In this document: one piece after another, positions 34,331 to 63,926 of the stretch
Position numbering within the stretch: the first letter of the stretch is position 1
Layout of the letters: each line of letters begins with the position of its first letter
Origin: Comamonadaceae bacterium CG_4_9_14_3_um_filter_60_33
Lineage (GTDB): Bacteria; Pseudomonadota; Gammaproteobacteria; Burkholderiales; Burkholderiaceae_C
DNA length: 64,000 nt
Assembly (NCBI GenBank): GCA_002789915.1
Contig: PFUD01000023.1
Coordinates: 1-64,000 of the forward strand
Reading direction: 5' to 3'
Made by a program: the position numbers and the translations under genes
Notes under the pieces: generated by a model
What the model was told of the DNA's origin: nothing
The model's database searches: none
The model's input: only the letters and a program-made list of their open reading frames with translations

Positions 34331-35038
34331 TCAAGCCGGTTTTGGCAGCACAGCCTGCGCTGTTAACCGATAGCCAGCGCCGCGCACGGTTTCCACCATC
34401 TGACCGGCCTCACCCAGCGCCTCGCGCAGGCGCTTGACGTGTACGTCGACCGTTCGCTCTTCGATGAAAACGTGGTCGCCCCAGACCTTATCGAGCAACT
34501 GAGAACGGCTGTGAACGCGTTCGGCGTGGCTCATCAGGTAATGCAAGAGCTTGAATTCTGTGGGCCCGAGCTTAACCGGCTGCCCATGGTAGGTAACGCG
34601 GTAGGTAGCCGCATCAAGACTCAACTCACCAAGCTTCACCACGCCCGTATCACGCTCGGGCGCGCGGCGGCGCAGCACGGCACGCATGCGCGCCAGCAGC
34701 TCCTTGGTGGAAAACGGTTTGGCAATGTAATCGTCGGCACCGGCATCAAGCCCCGCCACCCGGTCCACCTCGTCGCCGCGCGCAGTCAGCATGATGATGG
34801 GAACCGCTTTGGTGCGGGGGTGCGCACGCCAGCGTTTGGCCAATGCCAACCCGCTTTCGCCGGGCAGCATCCAGTCCAGCAAAATCACATCGGGCAGCGA
34901 GTTATCAAGTTCCGCCTGTGCCGTGGTGCTGTCCATGGCCCAGATCGGCCGAAAGCCGTTGTGGCGCAGATTGACCGAAATCAGCTCAGCAATGGCGGGT
35001 TCATCTTCAACGACCAACACACCAGGCAAGCGCCTCAT
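34331..35038 (-). CDS. phoB: phosphate regulon response regulator PhoB
   Basis: Receiver domain (VILLDWMLPGESG) plus OmpR-type winged helix; pho gene context. Confidence 0.94.
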   Translation of the reverse strand: MRRLPGVLVVEDEPAIAELISVNLRHNGFRPIWAMDSTTAQAELDNSLPDVILLDWMLPGESGLALAKRWRAHPRTKAVPIIMLTARGDEVDRVAGLDAGADDYIAKPFSTKELLARMRAVLRRRAPERDTGVVKLGELSLDAATYRVTYHGQPVKLGPTEFKLLHYLMSHAERVHSRSQLLDKVWGDHVFIEERTVDVHVKRLREALGEAGQMVETVRGAGYRLTAQAVLPKPA

Positions 35039-35736
35039 TTCACCACCGACTCGATTTCAGCCATCGGTGTGTGGCGAATGTCAGCCCCTTTAACGATGTA
35101 GATGATCAGCTCTGCAATGTTCTTGGCATGGTCGCCGATGCGCTCGATGGCCTTGGCCAGGAACAGCAAGTCCAGGCTTGGCGAAATCATGCGCGGGTCT
35201 TCCATCATGTAGGTGACCAGTTTGCGCACAAAGCCATCGAACTCCTTGTCGATCAGGTCGTCTTCCTTGAGAATGGCCAGCGCTGCTTCGGTATCGAGCC
35301 GGGCAAAGGCGTCCAGCGCTTTGCGCAGCAGGGCGGAGGCCATGTCAGACGCCACACGCAACTCCAGCGACGGCAGCGAGCGCGGCGAGCCGCTCTGGAT
35401 AATAGAGCGCACCATGCGGGCGATTTTTGCGGCTTCATCGCCCACCCGCTCAAGGTTGGCGGTGGTCTTGGAGATGGCAATCAGCAGGCGCAAATCGCGC
35501 GCTGTCGGCTGGCGCCTGGCAATGATGCTGGAAAGATCGCGGTCAATCTCGATCTCCATGGCGTTAACCCGAGTCTCGGTCTCTGTGACCTGGTCGGCCA
35601 CCTCGACGCTGAACTGCGACAGCGCAAAAATTGCCTGTCGAATCTGCGACTCGACCAGACCACCCAGCTCCATGACTCGGGTGGAAACAGCGCCGAGTTC
35701 GCTGTCGAATTGACTTGATAGATGTTTTTCACTCAT
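35035..35736 (-). CDS. phoU: phosphate transport system regulator PhoU
   Basis: PhoU repeats (GDHAKNIAELIIYIVKGADIRH). Confidence 0.95.
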   Translation of the reverse strand: MSEKHLSSQFDSELGAVSTRVMELGGLVESQIRQAIFALSQFSVEVADQVTETETRVNAMEIEIDRDLSSIIARRQPTARDLRLLIAISKTTANLERVGDEAAKIARMVRSIIQSGSPRSLPSLELRVASDMASALLRKALDAFARLDTEAALAILKEDDLIDKEFDGFVRKLVTYMMEDPRMISPSLDLLFLAKAIERIGDHAKNIAELIIYIVKGADIRHTPMAEIESVVK

Positions 35737-35753
35737 GGCAATATCCTTGTTGT

Positions 35754-36671
35754 TTAACCAAAACGGCCTGTAATGTAATCTTCGGTCTCGGTTCGGGTGG
35801 GTTTTAGAAAGAGCTGTTCAGTCGGTCCGTATTCGATCATGTCGCCCAAATACATATAAGCGGTGTAATCTGATACGCGAGCCGCTTGTTGCATGTTGTG
35901 CGTCACGATCACAATGGTAAAACGGCTCTTGAGTTCGTGCAGCAGTTCTTCAACTTTGGCCGTTGAGATGGGATCGAGGGCCGAGCAAGGCTCGTCGAGC
36001 AGGAGTACATCGGGCTCGAGCGCAATGGCACGAGCGATCACCAGTCGCTGCTGTTGCCCTCCGGACAGGCTCAACCCGTTGGTCTCGAGACGGTCCTTCA
36101 CTTCTTCCCACAAAGCAGCGCCTTTGAGAGACTTCTCCACCGCCTCGTCCAGTTGATCCTTGTTCTTGACGCCCAGCAGTCGCAAGCCATAGGCCACATT
36201 TTCGTAGATGGACTTTGGGAACGGATTGGGCTTCTGGAACACCATCCCCACACGACGCCGAAGTTGTGCAACGTTGACATTGCGGTCATAGATGTTGCGG
36301 CCTTCGTGCATGATCTTGCCCTCAATCCGGCAGCTGTCCACCAGATCGTTCATACGGTTGAAACAACGCAGCAGTGTGGATTTGCCGCAACCGCTGGGAC
36401 CAATGAAAGCCACCACCTTGCCCGTGGGGATATTCATGGTGATGTTTTGCAGCGCTTGCTTGTCACCATAGAAGAGATTGAGGTTCTTGACCTCAATGCA
36501 ATTTTCCTGCTCGGATAGAGGCCCAGCAGCGACGAAAGCGGCATCGCGTTGCGGCATGGTTGGCCGGGGCGCTTGTACAGGAGAGTTGATGGCGGTCATA
36601 TCGGTCATGGCAGTAGAAGTTAAGTTTTCAAATGGCGCAGCTGAGGCTGAGTTTTTCTGGGTGAAGCTCAC
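35754..36671 (-). CDS. pstB: phosphate ABC transporter ATP-binding protein PstB
   Basis: [52 protein letters not shown]. Confidence 0.96.
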
Positions 36672-38323
36672 ACAGATTCCAGGCCGCGGAAGTTCTCGCG
36701 AAGGCGGTTGCGTAGTCGAATAGCGAAGATGTTAAGCACCACAATAACAATCACCAGCAGCAGGGCCGTGGCGTACACCAGCGGTCGAGCGGCTTCGACG
36801 TTGGGGCTCTGGAACCCGACGTCGTAAATATGGAAGCCAAGGTGCATGAACTTACGCTCCAAATGCAAGAACGGAAAATAGCCGTCCATCGGCAAAGCCG
36901 GCGCGAGCTTGACGACACCCACCAGCATCAGTGGAGCCACCTCGCCGGCGGCGCGTGCCACTGCCAAAATCAGCCCGGTCATCATGGCGGGGCTGGCCAT
37001 GGGGAGCACGGTGCGCCACAGCGTTTCAGCCTTGGTCGCGCCCAACGCCAGGCTGCCTTCGCGCACCGAACGCGGCACCCGTGAAAGCCCTTCTTCAGTA
37101 GAAACAATCACCACCGGCAGGGTCAGGATCGCCAACGTCAGAGAAGCCCACAAGATACCGGGGCTGCCAAACGTCGGCGCTGGCAAAGCCTCGGCAAAAA
37201 ACAACTGGTCGATGTTGCCACCCAGAAAGTACACAAAAAAGCCCAAGCCGAAAACACCGTACACAATAGAAGGCACACCGGCGAGGTTATTCACCGAGAT
37301 GCGGATGATGCGAATCAGCGGACCTTGCTTGGCATACTCGCGCATGTAAATCGCCGCCATGATGCCAAAGGGCGTGACGATCACGGACATCATCAGCACC
37401 ATCAGCACAGTGCCAAAAATCGCTGGAAAGATACCACCTTCGGTGTTGGCTTCGCGCGGGTCCTCCACCAGGAACTCGGTCAACTTCTTGACGTAGTGGC
37501 CCATTTTCTGGAACAGTGTCATGGTGTTGGGCTGATAGAGGTCGGCCACCATAGCCAGCTTAAGCTCCTTGGTCTGCCCATCCTGAATTTCGGCTACCAA
37601 GGTGTCGCGCCCAATGGCGCTGCGCAGCTTTTGAAGCGTTTCCTGCAATACCAGGAATTCAGCGTCAAGCCCTACACGGCGTTTGGCCAGATCGGCTTTG
37701 ATCGCGTCGGTCAGTCCGCTCCCAAGCTCGGCGCGCCGCTGCTCAAGGCGCAATTGTTCAAGGCGATAATTAATGTCGCCGATGTCGTTCTTCTCAATTT
37801 TGTAGATCTGGTCAAACAGATCAGTGGCTCTGTTAAAGCGCTTTTGTAGTTCGGGCCAGGCGGCATCCCCCTCTGCCACGACTTGATCACTCTCTTTGAC
37901 TGCCTTAAGATGACCATAAAAATTACCCCACTCGCGACGCTCGATCACAACCACATCTTTGGGGTAAGTCAACTCACCCAACAAAGGCTCAGGGAACCAG
38001 CGAAAGTCCACGCCTGTCACATCGCGGTTACCCAACTTGACCAGCATGCGGTTGACGAACAGGCTGGATGACTTAATATCAAAACCAGACGCCACCAGGC
38101 GACGCACTGATACTTCTTCAGTCTCGCGAATCTCGCCGATCAGGCGAGATGAGGAGCCATCGCGTTCCTGAAATGTCGTTTCAATCACCATCTTGGGCCA
38201 GAAGTGGACTAGGCCGCGCGCAGCGATGAGCGACAGAACGCCCACCACCATCAAAACGGACAGTGCGACGGCACCACCTGTTAACCAGACCCAGGGCGCC
38301 CCGGATTTAAACCAGTCTTTCAT
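36668..38323 (-). CDS. pstA: phosphate ABC transporter permease PstA (extended N-terminal region)
   Basis: Permease core plus about 250 aa periplasmic/coiled-coil-rich N-terminal region; start [11 protein letters not shown] at 38323. Confidence 0.92.
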
Positions 38324-38333
38324 GGGAACTCCT

Positions 38334-40601
38334 TTAAATAGTGCTGTATTTCTCGCGCAAGCGCTGACGCACCAGCTCGGCGGCGGTATTGACCACGAAA
38401 GTGAAGCCAAAAAGCACCAGCGCTGACAGGAAAAGTAAACGGTAGTGCGTTTCTCCAACACCGGCTTCTGGCATTTCAACTCCGATGTTGGCCGACAGCG
38501 TGCGGAAGCCGCTGAACAGGCTGAAGTCCATCACGGCCGTGTTGCCCGTGGCCATCAGCACAATCATGGTTTCGCCCACGGCGCGCCCCAGGCCAATCAT
38601 GACGGCCGAGAAAATGCCCGGGCTTGCGGTCAGCAGCACCACGCCCACCAGCGTCTGCCACGGCGTGGCTCCCAAGGCGAGCGAACCAGAGGTCAAGTGC
38701 TTGGGCACCGAAAAAACTGCGTCTTCAGCAATCGAAAAGATGGTCGGCGTCACGGCAAAGCCCATGGCGATACCCACCACCAAAGAGTTGCGCTGGTCGT
38801 AACCGATGCCCATCGTGTTGCTCAGCCAGTTAGGCATGTCACCATCAAATAACACTGCTTCAATGGGGTGCCCGATACTGAAGAAAAACCAGAACATCAC
38901 CACCAGCACCGGCAACAGCATGGCAGCCTCCCAGCCTGGCGGAACCTTCAGGCGCAGACCGGCGGGCAGCAGATGGAAGGTGTAGGCCGCCAGCAAAAAC
39001 CCCGCTGGCAAGAAGACAATTGACAGCAACACCCCCGCCAGATTATTTTCCACAAAAGGTGCCAACCAGAGACCGGCCAAAAAACCCAGAATCACGGTGG
39101 GCAGTGCCTCCATCACTTCGATGGTTGGTTTGACAATGGTGCGCAGTCTGGCTGACATGAAGTAGGCAGTGAAGATCGCCCCAAGCAAGGCCAGCGGCAC
39201 CGCCACCAGCATGGCATAGGTAGCAGCCTTGAGCGTGCCGTACGTCAGGGGTGCCAGGCTGAATTTGGGTTCAAAGTCGGAATTGGCGGCTGAGGACTGC
39301 CAAACGAAATCAGGACTTTCATAGCTTTCATACCAGACCTTTTGCCATAGAGCAGAAAAAGAAACTTCGGGGTAATGGTTGTCCACCGTTGCCGAATACA
39401 CCTTGCCCGCTTCGTCCTGCACCAAATAGCCATTTCCGCGTGGCGGATAGCCCAGAACGGTGATTGGCTTGTCGCTGAGTTTTTCCGAGAACAACAAACG
39501 GTTGGAGGTTGCAAAATAACTGCCCACGGTGCCGCTCGCGTCACCCACCATAAAGCCTTTGCGATGAAACTCCGGGGCGATCGCCGTGATGGGCGCCTTC
39601 ATCGGCGTGAACTCGCGGATGCGCTTGAACTTGAAATTCACGTCTTCGGTGCGCACCAGGAACCACTGTGCCAAATTGCCTTTGTCGGTGCCGACGATGA
39701 GCGAGAAGCCACCGCTGAGCATTGTCATGGAGGTCACCTTTTCGCCCTCTGGAACCAGTTCAATGGTTTCAAGTTCTTTGGGGGCAGATTTGTCGCTGAT
39801 GTCGAAGCGCACCAAGTGACGGTCACCCGAGAGCACGTACATCTCACGCTGCTTGAACTCGATCAGAATCTTTCGCACATCGGCCGGTGCCGGAGAGATC
39901 ACCGAGCTCTGTTGTTCGCTGGTTTCTTCGCCGGTGATCGGGTTAGTACTAACGTTGACACCCGAGAGGATGAGGCGACCGTCTTGCGTCAGGCCGGCCA
40001 GTACGGTCCCGTCTGCCGATTGTTGCAAACCTAGCTGGATGATCGGAGCGCCCTGCTCGTCCAATGCCAGTGGCTGCTCACCCAACGGGTACTCGATTTC
40101 CGGATTAATTTGACGCTTGCCGTCAGGAAACGTCACCTTGAACCCTGCCTTGGCCACGACGATTTGCCCATTCGACAAACCATAGCCCAAGGCAAAAGTA
40201 CTCAGGTCGCCCATCGCAAACGAGGTTGCCTGAGTTTGCTCAGGAAGGGCGATCTGGGTGGACCCAAGCGACTCGCCCGTGTCAAACGCAAAAAACGCCA
40301 GAGCGCCCGCCGCACCAATGCGCAAACCGATTTCGCGCTGCTCTTCGCCGGTGAACGCCACGGTTTTTTGCGTCACATCGCCCGGCACTTCATAACTGTT
40401 TCGTGCCTCAATACCGGGCGGCATGAATACAGGGACAACCACACTGGCCAGGTAGAAAAAAATCGCCGACACGGCGACAATCACGCCAACGCCCCCGGCA
40501 GACATCACCTGTTTGAACAGTTTGTCGGAGAACATGCGCCGCCCCATGGCCAGATCAACGCTTTGGGCGGTCTGACTCTTGGCGTTGATGGTAGTGTTCA
40601 T
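38334..40601 (-). CDS. pstC: phosphate ABC transporter permease PstC (extended, about 755 aa)
   Basis: C-terminal permease core and about 400 aa N-terminal periplasmic region with beta-propeller-like repeats. Confidence 0.9.
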   Translation of the reverse strand: MNTTINAKSQTAQSVDLAMGRRMFSDKLFKQVMSAGGVGVIVAVSAIFFYLASVVVPVFMPPGIEARNSYEVPGDVTQKTVAFTGEEQREIGLRIGAAGALAFFAFDTGESLGSTQIALPEQTQATSFAMGDLSTFALGYGLSNGQIVVAKAGFKVTFPDGKRQINPEIEYPLGEQPLALDEQGAPIIQLGLQQSADGTVLAGLTQDGRLILSGVNVSTNPITGEETSEQQSSVISPAPADVRKILIEFKQREMYVLSGDRHLVRFDISDKSAPKELETIELVPEGEKVTSMTMLSGGFSLIVGTDKGNLAQWFLVRTEDVNFKFKRIREFTPMKAPITAIAPEFHRKGFMVGDASGTVGSYFATSNRLLFSEKLSDKPITVLGYPPRGNGYLVQDEAGKVYSATVDNHYPEVSFSALWQKVWYESYESPDFVWQSSAANSDFEPKFSLAPLTYGTLKAATYAMLVAVPLALLGAIFTAYFMSARLRTIVKPTIEVMEALPTVILGFLAGLWLAPFVENNLAGVLLSIVFLPAGFLLAAYTFHLLPAGLRLKVPPGWEAAMLLPVLVVMFWFFFSIGHPIEAVLFDGDMPNWLSNTMGIGYDQRNSLVVGIAMGFAVTPTIFSIAEDAVFSVPKHLTSGSLALGATPWQTLVGVVLLTASPGIFSAVMIGLGRAVGETMIVLMATGNTAVMDFSLFSGFRTLSANIGVEMPEAGVGETHYRLLFLSALVLFGFTFVVNTAAELVRQRLREKYSTI

Positions 40602-40622
40602 TTGTTAGTCCAGCAAAAATGA

Positions 40623-40659
40623 CTTGCTGCAGGAAGGCCGTTGCCTTACGTGCAGCAAG
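40623..40659 (-). other. intercistronic hairpin just upstream of pstC
   Basis: CTTGCTGCA (40623-40631) / TGCAGCAAG (40651-40659), with inner AAGGC/GCCTT. Confidence 0.65.
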
Positions 40660-40664
40660 CGAAA

Positions 40665-40684
40665 ACCCCTCTGTCCAGAGGGGT
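40665..40684 (-). terminator. attenuator/terminator-like hairpin downstream of the lipoprotein gene and upstream of pstC
   Basis: On the minus strand ACCCCTCTGGACAGAGGGGT followed by TTTC: 9-bp perfect stem, short U run. Confidence 0.6.
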
Positions 40685-40693
40685 AGGTCTTTT

Positions 40694-41293
40694 TCAGTTG
40701 GCAGCGCGAATCGTCTTGAAACGAGCAATGCGCGCCTCAGGGCGACCCTTTTTGATACTGGTTTTGTTCATCACCCAAACCAAGCTTTTACCCTGTGGGC
40801 CCGTACCAATATCGGTAAAGGCATAGGGCACTTCACCGACAGCGGCAAATTCTTTCATGTCCTTGAGGTCATCAAAGACATAAAAACGACCTTCTTTAAA
40901 CACTTCACCGTAGAAATCAGTACCGCCAGACAGCTTGCCATCAAAAACCAATTCACCTTTGGTGGGCTTGTTGGCTTTGACATCGGCTTTGGTGAGACCG
41001 AACACCACGGTCTTGCCGTCGGGGCCGGCACCGATACGCGTGCGAGTCAGGGCAACTTCGCCATGGGCCAAGAACTGCTGATAGGTCTTAAAGTCACCAA
41101 AAGCGTAGAACCGGCCCTCTTCGGTCAGCACCACGTAATATTCGCTTGCGGAGGCCTCGGCCTTAGCCGGTGCAGCAGCATACGTTGATGCTGCTTTCGA
41201 CGCTGTTGTGGGAGCCTGGTTGGCGCAGCCAACCAAAGTCAACGCAGCCAAGGCCACGACGGACAGGCTGGCGCGTTCAAAAGAAAAAGACAT
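40694..41293 (-). CDS. putative lipoprotein with two tandem homologous domains, between pstS and pstC
   Basis: Lipobox LTLVGCAN; repeat 1 EYYVVLTEEGRFYAFGDFKTYQQFLAHGEVALTRTRIGAGPDGKTVVF vs repeat 2 DFYGEVFKEGRFYVFDDLKDMKEFAAVGEVPYAFTDIGTGPQGKSLVW. Confidence 0.85.
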   Translation of the reverse strand: MSFSFERASLSVVALAALTLVGCANQAPTTASKAASTYAAAPAKAEASASEYYVVLTEEGRFYAFGDFKTYQQFLAHGEVALTRTRIGAGPDGKTVVFGLTKADVKANKPTKGELVFDGKLSGGTDFYGEVFKEGRFYVFDDLKDMKEFAAVGEVPYAFTDIGTGPQGKSLVWVMNKTSIKKGRPEARIARFKTIRAAN

Positions 41294-41312
41294 GGATATC
41301 TCCTAATGAAAG

Positions 41313-41354
41313 GAGCCGCAGCGGACTCGCGTTGTGCACGCGATGCTGCGACTC
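41313..41354 (-). other. long intercistronic hairpin between pstS and the lipoprotein gene
   Basis: GAGTCGCAGC / GCTGCGGCTC outer stem (one T-G wobble) and TCGCGT/ACGCGA inner stem. Confidence 0.6.
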
Positions 41355-41362
41355 GATTGGGT

Positions 41363-42343
41363 TTATTTGGTAAAACTGTCCACTGCCTTCGCAGCCATGG
41401 CAGCAGGCATCGGGACAAAACCGTCCTTGATCACCACTTTTTGGCCTTGCTGCGACAGCACCATCTTGAAGAATTCACGCTCCAGCGGGTTCAGCGCCGT
41501 GTTGGGCTTTTTGTTCACATAAACGTACAGGACGCGAGCCAGAGGATAGGTACCATCAAGCGCGTGCTTGGGATCAGCCTCAACGTAGGGCTGACCCACC
41601 TTTTTGGAAAGCGGCAAGACGCGCACGCCAGAAGTTTTGTAACCAATGCCAGAGTAACCCAAGGCATTGATCTGCGTAGCTACCGACTGCACCACAGAGG
41701 CGGAACCTGGTTGTTCAGCCACCTCGCGCTTGAAGTCACCTTTGCAAAGCGCGTGTCCCTTGAAGTAACCGTAAGTGCCCGAGACCGAGTTACGACCATA
41801 CAAGGCGATGTCGCGAGTGGCCCACTCACCAGTCATGCCCAACTGACCCCACTTGGTAATGTCGGTACCCAAGCCGCACTTACGCCCCACAGACATGGCA
41901 GCATCAACCTCTTGAAGACTCATACCCTTGATCGGGTTGTCTTTATTAACGTAAACGGCCAAGGCATCAATCGCCACAGGCACCGGGAAGGGCTTGTAGC
42001 CGTGCTTTTTCTCAAAAGCCTCAACTTCTTTGGCCGTCATCATACGGCTCATGGGGCCAAAATTGGAGGCACCTTCGGTCAGGGCCGGCGGCGCAGTGGA
42101 CGAACCGGCACCTTGAATCTGAATGTTCACGTTGGGGTACAGGCGCTTGTATTCTTCTGCCCACAAAGTCATCAGGTTATTGAGTGTGTCGGAGCCCACA
42201 CTGGTAAAATTTCCAGATACGCCAGAAGATTTTTCGTAGTTGGGTAAAGCCGGATCGACTTGGACAGCTTGAGCCATCACAGATTGAGCCACAAAGCTGA
42301 CAGTTACCGCGCCCATCAGCGCGACCAGTGTTTTCAATTTCAT
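41363..42343 (-). CDS. pstS: phosphate ABC transporter substrate-binding protein PstS
   Basis: Signal peptide [70 protein letters not shown]. Confidence 0.94.
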
Positions 42344-42414
42344 CGGATTTTCTCCAGTTGGTTTGGGACGATTCAGCACCTCTTGTGCTTCGAGACGAAG
42401 TTTAAAAAGGCTTT

Positions 42415-42443
42415 GTGTCAATACTGTGACAATTTGATCACAA
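42415..42443 (-). promoter_or_regulatory. putative Pho box array upstream of pstS (proximal)
   Basis: Minus strand TTGTGAT-CAAA-TTGTCAC-AGTA-TTGACAC: three 7-mers at 11-bp spacing, then TAAACT 10 bp downstream. Confidence 0.75.
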
Positions 42444-42503
42444 ACCATGGTCAGGTTCCTGCCCAGTTTGGCCACGGGCAATTCGATTTTTTCACTTTTA
42501 CCA

Positions 42504-42579: not shown

Positions 42580-42597
42580 GTGTCATTGAAGTGTCAT
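42580..42597 (+). promoter_or_regulatory. putative Pho box for the ppk2 operon
   Basis: GTGTCAT-TGAA-GTGTCAT direct repeat, 11-bp spacing. Confidence 0.7.
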
Positions 42598-42662: not shown

Positions 42663-42947
42663 ATGCTCGCCATCAAAAAAGCCCGCAAACTGATTGAAGC
42701 CAGCCCGAGCGACCCTGCTGCACACATCATTGCCGCGTTGGTCCTCGCGCTTGAGAGTGAATCCAGCATCTCGGTCGCAGAGCTTTACAAGCTCGACAAC
42801 AAACGCTTCGAGTTGGCGATGGAAATCCTCAACGAGTGGCGACTTGACCGGCATTACGCCAGCAAACTACGCCTGGTCGACTCCAGCACCATGGTGCAGG
42901 CTTTGGTTAACGTCCCCCAGGATTCACTTGAACCCTCTTCCAAATAA
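42663..42947 (+). CDS. conserved small hypothetical protein
   Basis: 94 aa MLAIKKARKLIEASPSDPAAHIIAALVLALESESSISVAELYKLDNKRFELAMEIL...; 8 bp before ppk2. Confidence 0.75.
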   Translation: MLAIKKARKLIEASPSDPAAHIIAALVLALESESSISVAELYKLDNKRFELAMEILNEWRLDRHYASKLRLVDSSTMVQALVNVPQDSLEPSSK

Positions 42948-42955
42948 GCAAAGCT

Positions 42956-43912
42956 GTGTCAAGCAATAACAAAGAACCTTCACGGGAGCTCGATTTGGAT
43001 TTCAATGAAAGAAATCTTATTGAACGCATTCGTCGCGATCTGGCTGACAGCAACGACGAAGAATTTGAACTCGAGCTTGAGGATCGGAACCTCGATACCG
43101 CTGCCGGGCGGGCGATGGACTTCGAATCCGAGGAGTACAGGAATAGCAGGAAACTGTACTTCCGGGAACTGATCCGGCTTCAGGCCGAATTGGTCAAGCT
43201 GCAGGACTGGGTCGTTAAAACCGGCCAAAAAATCGTGATTTTGTTCGAGGGGCGTGATGCCGCCGGCAAAGGGGGCACCATCAAGCGCATCACACAGCGC
43301 CTGAATCCGCGGGTGTGCCGGGTCGCTGCCTTGCCCGCCCCGAACACCCGCGAGCAAACCCAGTGGTACTTCCAGCGCTATGTGGCGCACTTGCCCGGCG
43401 CGGGTGAAATGGTCTTGTTCGACCGCAGCTGGTACAACCGGGCGGGTGTCGAGCGGGTCATGGGATTCTGCTCGGACGAACAATATGAAGAATTTTTCCG
43501 CTCCGTGCCTGAGTTCGAAAAAATGCTGCTGCGCTCTGGCATCAAACTGGTCAAGTACTGGTTTTCAGTGTCTGATGAAGAACAACAAATCCGGTTTTTG
43601 GGACGCATTCATGACCCCCTCAAGCAGTGGAAACTCAGCCCGATGGACATGGAGTCGCGCCGCCGCTGGGAGGAGTACACCAAAGCCAAGGAAGTGATGT
43701 TTGAGCGCACCCACACCCCGGAGTCCCCCTGGTGGGTGGTGCAGGCCGACGACAAGAAAAAAGCCCGGCTCAATTGCATTCACCACTTGCTGAGCCAGTT
43801 CGACTACCACGAAGTGGAACATCCACCTATCATGTTGCCGCCGCGCGAGCACAACGACGACTATGTGCGCCTACCCATCCCCAATGAAATTCTGGTACCT
43901 GAAATTTATTGA
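42956..43912 (+). CDS. ppk2: polyphosphate kinase 2
   Basis: VILFEGRDAAGKGGTIKRI (Walker A-like), FDRSWYNRAGVERVMGFCS; GTG start. Confidence 0.95.
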   Translation: MSSNNKEPSRELDLDFNERNLIERIRRDLADSNDEEFELELEDRNLDTAAGRAMDFESEEYRNSRKLYFRELIRLQAELVKLQDWVVKTGQKIVILFEGRDAAGKGGTIKRITQRLNPRVCRVAALPAPNTREQTQWYFQRYVAHLPGAGEMVLFDRSWYNRAGVERVMGFCSDEQYEEFFRSVPEFEKMLLRSGIKLVKYWFSVSDEEQQIRFLGRIHDPLKQWKLSPMDMESRRRWEEYTKAKEVMFERTHTPESPWWVVQADDKKKARLNCIHHLLSQFDYHEVEHPPIMLPPREHNDDYVRLPIPNEILVPEIY

Positions 43913-43924
43913 TTGCTTGATTCG

Positions 43925-44374
43925 ATGAGCACGAACACACCAAGCACCCAAACGACCGATTCTGTCGCGCATCCTGACATAAGCAAAGCCACGGCACCTG
44001 TAGCCAGCCCTACAGTCGCCAAAAAAGTCGCGCCTCTCATTTTCAAGACCCCTGTCAAACGCGTGACGTCAAGCAGCAAAAAGCCCATGCCGGTGGCCAA
44101 GCCTGCAGACAAGACTGTCAAACCTGCTTCGGCTGCTGCCAGACCAGCCTCCAGAAAGTTACTCAAACCCAAAAAAATCAAATTGGTGCGCGACAGCTTC
44201 ATTATTCCAAAGCTGGAATACCTGATGCTCGATGCGCTGAAGCTGCGCGCCGACGCACTGGGAAAATCCATCAAGAAAAGTGAACTGGTACGCGCCGGCA
44301 TCAAGGCCCTGGCTGCCATGCCGGACAGTCAATTTCTGGCAGCTATAAAGGCCGTGGCGCCAGGCAAAAACTGA
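43925..44374 (+). CDS. lysine/alanine/proline-rich protein with C-terminal ribbon-helix-helix-like domain
   Basis: Basic low-complexity N-terminal tail, then KLVRDSFIIPKLEYLMLDALKLRADALGKSIKKSELVRAGIKALAAM (beta strand, helix, G-x-S/K-x-SELVRAG helix); paralog of 58803-59375. Confidence 0.75.
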   Translation: MSTNTPSTQTTDSVAHPDISKATAPVASPTVAKKVAPLIFKTPVKRVTSSSKKPMPVAKPADKTVKPASAAARPASRKLLKPKKIKLVRDSFIIPKLEYLMLDALKLRADALGKSIKKSELVRAGIKALAAMPDSQFLAAIKAVAPGKN

Positions 44375-58712: not shown

Positions 58713-58730
58713 ATGACAATTGCATGACAA
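58713..58730 (-). promoter_or_regulatory. putative Pho box upstream of glgC
   Basis: Minus strand TTGTCAT-GCAA-TTGTCAT: two identical 7-mers, 11-bp spacing. Confidence 0.65.
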
Positions 58731-58802: not shown

Positions 58803-59375
58803 ATGACATCAACAATGCAGACCGGGCTTGTGACCGAGCCCACCACAGCCCATGCCGATCAGCCAAGCGCCAGCAGCACCACACGACCTTCAACGCCTTC
58901 AACACCTGCTCCGTCGGCACCTGTGCCCACCCCTCCAGCGGTAAAATCAGTGGCAAAAAGAGTGGCCAGAACACCCGCCAAAAAAGTTTCTGCACCGGCC
59001 AGGCCAGCTACCAAGGTCGCTGTCAAATCAGTCGTGAAGAAGGCCGCAACCAGTGCCGCACTCAGGGCTGCAACTAAAGCACCTGCGAAGGCCGTACCAA
59101 AAACGGCTATCGCTGCGACCACAAAGCCGAGTGAAACCAAGCTGCTGAAGGCCAAAAAGCCAAAGCTGGTGCGCGACAGCTTTACCATCCCTAAACTTGA
59201 ATACCTCAAACTCGAAGAGTTGAAGCAGCGCAGTGTCACGCTGGGAAACGCAATCAAAAAGAGCGAGCTGATTCGCGCTGGCATCATGGCATTGGCCACC
59301 ATGTCAGATGCCAATTTCCTGAAAGCCACAAAAGCTGTTCCGGCCATCAAAACCGGACGGCCTGCCAAAGACTGA
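58803..59375 (+). CDS. histone H1-like Ala/Lys/Pro-rich protein with C-terminal ribbon-helix-helix-like domain
   Basis: Tail VAKRVARTPAKKVSAPARPATKVAVKSVVKKAATSAALRAATKAPAKAV..., then KLVRDSFTIPKLEYLKLEELKQRSVTLGNAIKKSELIRAGIMALATM; paralog of 43925-44374. Confidence 0.8.
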   Translation: MTSTMQTGLVTEPTTAHADQPSASSTTRPSTPSTPAPSAPVPTPPAVKSVAKRVARTPAKKVSAPARPATKVAVKSVVKKAATSAALRAATKAPAKAVPKTAIAATTKPSETKLLKAKKPKLVRDSFTIPKLEYLKLEELKQRSVTLGNAIKKSELIRAGIMALATMSDANFLKATKAVPAIKTGRPAKD

Positions 59376-63908: not shown

Positions 63909-63926
63909 ATGTCATAAATGTGTCAT
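63909..63926 (+). promoter_or_regulatory. near-consensus Pho box at the right window edge
   Basis: ATGTCAT-AAAT-GTGTCAT, close to CTGTCATAAATCTGTCAT. Confidence 0.65.

Follow-up and report, generated by a model that had tools for sequence, protein, structure and literature searches.

The window, that is, the whole stretch of 64,000 nucleotides that was analysed, contains two divergent groups of phosphate-related genes. On the reverse strand, a phoB-phoU-pstB-pstA-pstC-(hypothetical)-pstS group occupies positions 34331–42481 of the ORF map; its gene names were assigned from a reading of the translations. The hypothetical protein between pstS and pstC (40694–41293, reverse strand), which does not match any Pfam family, appears to be a lipoprotein built of two halves that resemble each other. 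On the forward strand, the opposite group starts with a small open reading frame of 94 amino acids, sm94 (42663–42947), also without a Pfam match. It is conserved, with 88% identity to its counterpart in a Rhodoferax locus (L003), where the gene order sm94-ppk2-X is the same. This is followed by ppk2 (42956–43912, forward strand; PF03976, E = 6e-111; TIGR03707, E = 1.5e-115) and, on the same strand after a gap of 12 bp, by the gene studied here, X1 (43925–44374), which encodes 149 amino acids plus the stop codon.

The X1 protein consists of a basic amino-terminal tail and a carboxy-terminal domain resembling a ribbon-helix-helix (RHH) fold. The tail (residues 1–85, positions 43925–44179, forward strand) is rich in lysine, alanine, proline, serine and threonine (16% Lys, 15% Ala, 14% Pro), contains three acidic residues, has a net charge of +14, evolves fast and is presumably disordered. 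The conserved domain (residues 86–149, positions 44180–44371, forward strand), with the sequence KLVRDSF..KKSELVRAGIKAL.., is predicted to be made up of an extended segment followed by the two RHH helices and one further helix. The isoelectric point of the whole protein is 10.6. The features described in the initial annotation, namely an open reading frame starting 12 bp after ppk2, a Lys/Ala/Pro-rich amino-terminal half and the quoted carboxy-terminal motif, are all present. When X1 is compared with its Rhodoferax orthologue in L003, dN/dS is about 0.1 for the domain (0.063/0.646) and about 0.5 for the tail (0.295/0.621). Purifying selection on the domain is thus strong, while the tail retains its character and not its sequence. 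Together with homologues in 104 of the 201 sampled genomes of the same taxonomic family, these sequence ratios identify X1 as a real gene.

A second family member, X2, is located further downstream (58803–59375, forward strand) and encodes 190 amino acids. Its tail is longer than that of X1 and the two domains are 67% identical. The carboxy-terminal KTGRP motif, present in nearly all relatives (137 of 146 with a loose pattern), has been lost in X1 and kept in X2 (59349–59363, forward strand); its likeness to an AT-hook was noted by eye only. X2 stands alone, with glgC on one side and a gene for a PhoD-type phosphatase (PF09423) on the other. The genome contains exactly two members of the family, X1 and X2, both in the window.

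With the exact PhoB-box pattern TGTCAT-N5-TGTCAT, three Pho boxes are found in the 3.06-Mb assembly, all inside the window; a reversed control pattern gave none. The first (42581–42597, forward strand) faces the sm94-ppk2-X1 group, about 65 bp upstream of sm94, and L003 has a counterpart in the same place with one mismatch. At the sequence level, the group is thus preceded by a predicted PhoB box at promoter distance and in the right orientation. The second (58713–58729, reverse strand) lies in the divergent glgC/X2 intergenic region. Its orientation towards glgC suggests control of glycogen synthesis by phosphate starvation through this gene, and predicted Pho control of X2 by the same box is possible. 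The third (63910–63926, forward strand) is located about 380 bp away from the end of the contig, and its target gene probably lies beyond the contig. Across the family, Pho boxes with at most one mismatch were found upstream of 3 of 145 X genes, equal to background; Pho control is therefore claimed only for the ppk2-X group of the window and its Rhodoferax relative.

The consensus of the domain is KLVRDSFTIPKxEYxxLDxLKxRAxxLxxxxKKSELLRAGIKALAxMxDxxFLAALxAVPxIKTGRPKK. Beyond the taxonomic family of the host, homologues were found in 80 of 349 sampled genomes across its order and in 9 of 369 across its class; none was found on viral contigs. The charge of the tail is a general property: of 120 members measured, 91% have a net value of +8 or more, and the median is +15. 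Searches of Pfam, NCBIfam and PHROGs gave no usable family match, annotated plasmid copies are labelled hypothetical protein and no description was found in the open-licence papers searched. X is thus a family of small basic proteins so far undescribed.

The initial annotation had proposed an RHH fold for the domain, and the comparisons made here support this moderately. In an AlphaFold2 model of the monomer (mean pLDDT 81), an extended segment (RDSF.IP) is followed by helices at residues 19–34, 41–54 and 57–66, which is the RHH order plus one extra helix; no strand is assigned, but the paired RHH strand cannot show in a monomer model. A profile of five RHH sequences proved too weak in hhalign (8.5%), so a larger RHH set and a helix-turn-helix control were built. 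Against 19 RHH_1 sequences from related genomes, a profile of diverse X members (A3) reached 57% (E = 1.1e-4, score 23.8), compared with 0.9% and a score of 12.3 against HTH_3; none of 100 column shuffles scored above 13.6. The alignment covers 36 columns over the strand, helix A and helix B and brings the [KS]SE[LV][LV]R motifs into register; X has about five additional residues before helix B. A tighter profile (A2) fell short of this match, at 1.1%. X remains below every Pfam RHH cut-off, and X1 has no Pfam match at all; the weak signals are one ParD match among 27 members (E = 0.065) and an RHH_1 score of 15.6 bits in a distant member, against a cut-off of 20.5. Foldseek comparison of the monomer models with the PDB and BFVD gave nothing below E = 0.4; the best PDB match of model 1 was a ParD antitoxin complex (E = 1.9, not significant), and model 2 had no RHH match. 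A sequence search of the PDB was likewise without significant match, the weak matches of the broad profile being three ParD antitoxins and also bHLH proteins. A confident non-RHH fold was looked for and not found, and both the secondary structure and the comparison of profiles point to a divergent RHH. We regard this fold as likely rather than proven.

The genomic surroundings were analysed for 146 loci: 140 hits, each with about 12 kb of surrounding sequence, and six loci from a species collection. Polyphosphate (polyP) genes were counted with a tblastn panel in the fetched flanks, and ppx, ppk1 and sixA in the neighbour clusters were named from a reading of the translations. The most common arrangement is ppx > X < sixA < ppk1, with ppx directly upstream of X and sixA and then ppk1 convergent downstream. 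A ppx gene lies immediately upstream on the same strand at 47 of the 146 loci, and the full ppx > X < ppk1 order is present at 42. At least one of ppk1, ppx and ppk2 is found within about 6 kb of X at 82 of the 146 loci. At a density of about five such genes per 4.5 Mb, chance would account for roughly 2%; this value was estimated rather than measured in a control, and the loci lack phylogenetic independence. The association of homologues with polyP and Pho genes had been named beforehand as a point on which the proposal could fail, and it held. When pst, phoU and CHAD genes (the latter within 6 kb at eight loci) are added to the list, 97 of the 146 loci are linked. At the other 49, no recognised polyP or phosphate gene is present within 6 kb, and some members may therefore have other functions.

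The arrangements are diverse. The ppk2-X pair is found in the window and in L003, and ppk2-ppx-X in L038, L043 and L046. The order rpiA<X>pstSCAB-phoU occurs in Dechloromonas and elsewhere (L007, L008, L133 and L138). An X-phoU pair is located on a Paraburkholderia plasmid, and in Aquabacterium X lies beside a gene annotated 'phosphate transport regulator'. The megaplasmid of Cupriavidus sp. KK10 (L200) has a compact region with ppx, CYTH-CHAD, Phasin_2, X, ppk1 and pstS, which combines polyP and PHB granule genes. Such recurrence in different arrangements is a stronger argument than the bare count, and at the level of gene order the linkage of X to polyP genes is strongly supported. Arsenic genes also occur near X: ars genes in L038 and L046 and, on a Comamonas aquatica plasmid (L197), an arsenic resistance operon directly followed by X. 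In the assembly of the window (G000), ppx is located at C10:9366 and ppk1 (PF02503, polyphosphate kinase 1) was not found; the assembly is only 92% complete, and the missing gene may reflect either an assembly gap or reliance on PPK2.

Genes for ParA-type ATPases recur as neighbours of X, within about 1.2 kb at 8 of the 146 loci (L076, L129, L131, L134, L153, L177, L180 and L184). In L129 and L131, ParA lies inside the ppx/ppk1 cluster (ppx > ParA < X > sixA < ppk1 <), while in L153 the pair is divergent (ParA < X >), with a CYTH-CHAD gene (PF05235, PF01928) 1.9 kb further on. The order is X > ParA > in L076, and in one genome (G138) the coordinates show X closely followed by ParA, both on one strand. 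In the distant members L177, L180 and L184, ParA is immediately upstream, as in plasmid partition pairs. Separately, in L096 a ParA gene lies between ppk1 and ppk2. Neither X1 nor X2 has a linked parA; the only ParA orthologue of this genome (G000:C123:18063-18677) is elsewhere. Orthologues are present in 157 of the 201 genomes of the taxonomic family, in 85 of 104 with X and 72 of 97 without it (Fisher P = 0.23, not significant). ParA is thus common whether or not X is present, and adjacency is the only feature that speaks for a partnership.

Several known systems resemble X in part. AlgP of Pseudomonas aeruginosa is a basic, H1-like protein linked to polyP granules that affects their number, size and spacing; an alpha-helical amino-terminal domain is followed by carboxy-terminal KPAA tandem repeats (PMC9239181). 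X also has a highly basic, H1-like segment rich in lysine, alanine and proline, presumably disordered, but direct reading shows the tail first, the RHH-like domain last and no KPAA array. PhaM of Cupriavidus necator and PhaF of Pseudomonas putida use a basic histone-like segment to join storage granules to the nucleoid (PMC13052382). A single protein joining granule and nucleoid in this way is what we propose for X, although PhaM and PhaF act on PHB/PHA granules through an amino-terminal granule-binding part and X has no phasin match. Homology of X to AlgP or PhaM was not detected. Since the order of parts is reversed, the KPAA array is missing and no homology was found, X is neither AlgP nor PhaM/PhaF by descent; by analogy, it is best read as similar to them in logic (AlgP for polyP, PhaM and PhaF for PHB). 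The comparison with AlgP made in the initial annotation therefore stands as an analogy and not as kinship. ParG of plasmid TP228, which segregates the plasmid centromere, has a flexible amino-terminal tail that stimulates the ParA ATPase ParF, and a carboxy-terminal RHH domain (PMC7308502). The order of parts and the charge agree in X, with its presumably flexible tail and probable RHH domain, and some members adjoin parA; however, the majority of X genes lie among polyP genes and lack a ParA neighbour, and X differs in its third helix, the KTGRP motif and a longer basic tail. CHAD domains are described as polyP-binding modules, and CHAD phosins as polyP-associated (PMC6537752); they are occasional neighbours of X, but the CHAD domain is an unrelated helical domain and X has no PF05235 match. 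RHH proteins of the CopG/ParD/NikR type (PF01402) align with X in the predicted strand-helix-helix pattern and the [KS]SE[LV][LV]R motif; X differs in its sub-threshold scores, extra helix, carboxy-terminal KTGRP and the insertion before helix B.

Our best reading, to which we give about an even chance, is that X is a DNA-binding adaptor of the polyP system, connecting granule and nucleoid. The divergent RHH domain would dimerise and hold nucleoid DNA, while the lysine-rich disordered tail would contact polyP or polyP-bound enzymes. Located on granules, X would nucleate, space or segregate them and so influence their number, spacing or inheritance; in some lineages it may act with a ParA-type ATPase, which it would stimulate. 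The gene, its conserved domain, the linkage to polyP and phosphate genes, the Pho box before ppk2-X1 and the recurrent ParA neighbours are in keeping with this role. Against it stand the 49 loci with no polyP or phosphate neighbour, the presence of ParA in genomes with and without X, the failure to find ppk1 in the assembly of the window, and the affinity of basic disordered tails for polyanions of many kinds. In an extended form, which by analogy with ParG and ParF is conceivable but rather unlikely, X would be the cargo adaptor of an ATP-driven positioning of polyP granules, marking the granules while its basic tail stimulates a nucleoid-bound ParA. The clusters of L129, L131 and L153 would be the complete form of such a system; elsewhere, ParA would be unlinked or X would be a passive tether.

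The main rival to the adaptor reading casts X as a conventional RHH regulator of transcription of the adjacent polyP or Pho genes, in which the tail adds non-specific DNA affinity and polyP may release the protein from DNA. RHH proteins are mostly repressors, often autoregulating their own operon, and this general habit fits a family that often adjoins genes to be controlled and in which the domain is conserved and the tail is not; the shared intergenic region of the divergent ParA/X and rpiA/X pairs could be an operator. However, X is mostly the last gene of a ppx-X pair convergent with sixA-ppk1, which differs from the usual repressor-first layout, and the ppk2-X1 group already lies behind a predicted PhoB site. 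The long Lys/Ala/Pro tail of nearly all members, with its charge kept but not its sequence, fits a polyanion scaffold better. We hold a regulatory role to be possible but doubtful. It is improbable that X binds polyP as an accessory subunit or activator of PPK or PPX, with the domain as a dimerisation module and DNA not a ligand. Gene adjacency to ppx, ppk1 or ppk2, down to the 12-bp gap in the window, speaks for it, and the activation of PhaC by PhaM (PMC13052382) provides a precedent, but among remote profile matches the best is to a fold that binds DNA, and a single enzyme partner leaves the ParA and pst/phoU neighbours unexplained. Least probable is a general nucleoid-associated or H1-like protein with the polyP linkage as inherited synteny, which the tail composition and the 49 unlinked loci would allow but the varied arrangements with different polyP and phosphate genes, plasmids included, and the Pho box in the window oppose.

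The organisation of granules or sensing of polyP by X, as first proposed, may thus be regarded as a good hypothesis. What the present analysis adds is a family that extends across the order, the ppx-X-sixA-ppk1 locus, a second copy in the window, the Pho box ahead of ppk2-X1 and ParA genes beside X. Members occur in metagenome-assembled genomes of Dechloromonas and Rhodoferax, genera that are met in wastewater sludge. The proteins by which bacteria place and count their polyP granules are known in few cases, and, according to a 2025 review, whether energy goes into the placement of PHB and polyP granules remains to be seen (PMC13052382). The X family is widespread and unannotated, is located in the polyP locus of many Burkholderiales and is accompanied in some lineages by a ParA ATPase; its probable role is to link storage granules of polyphosphate to DNA or to control these granules.
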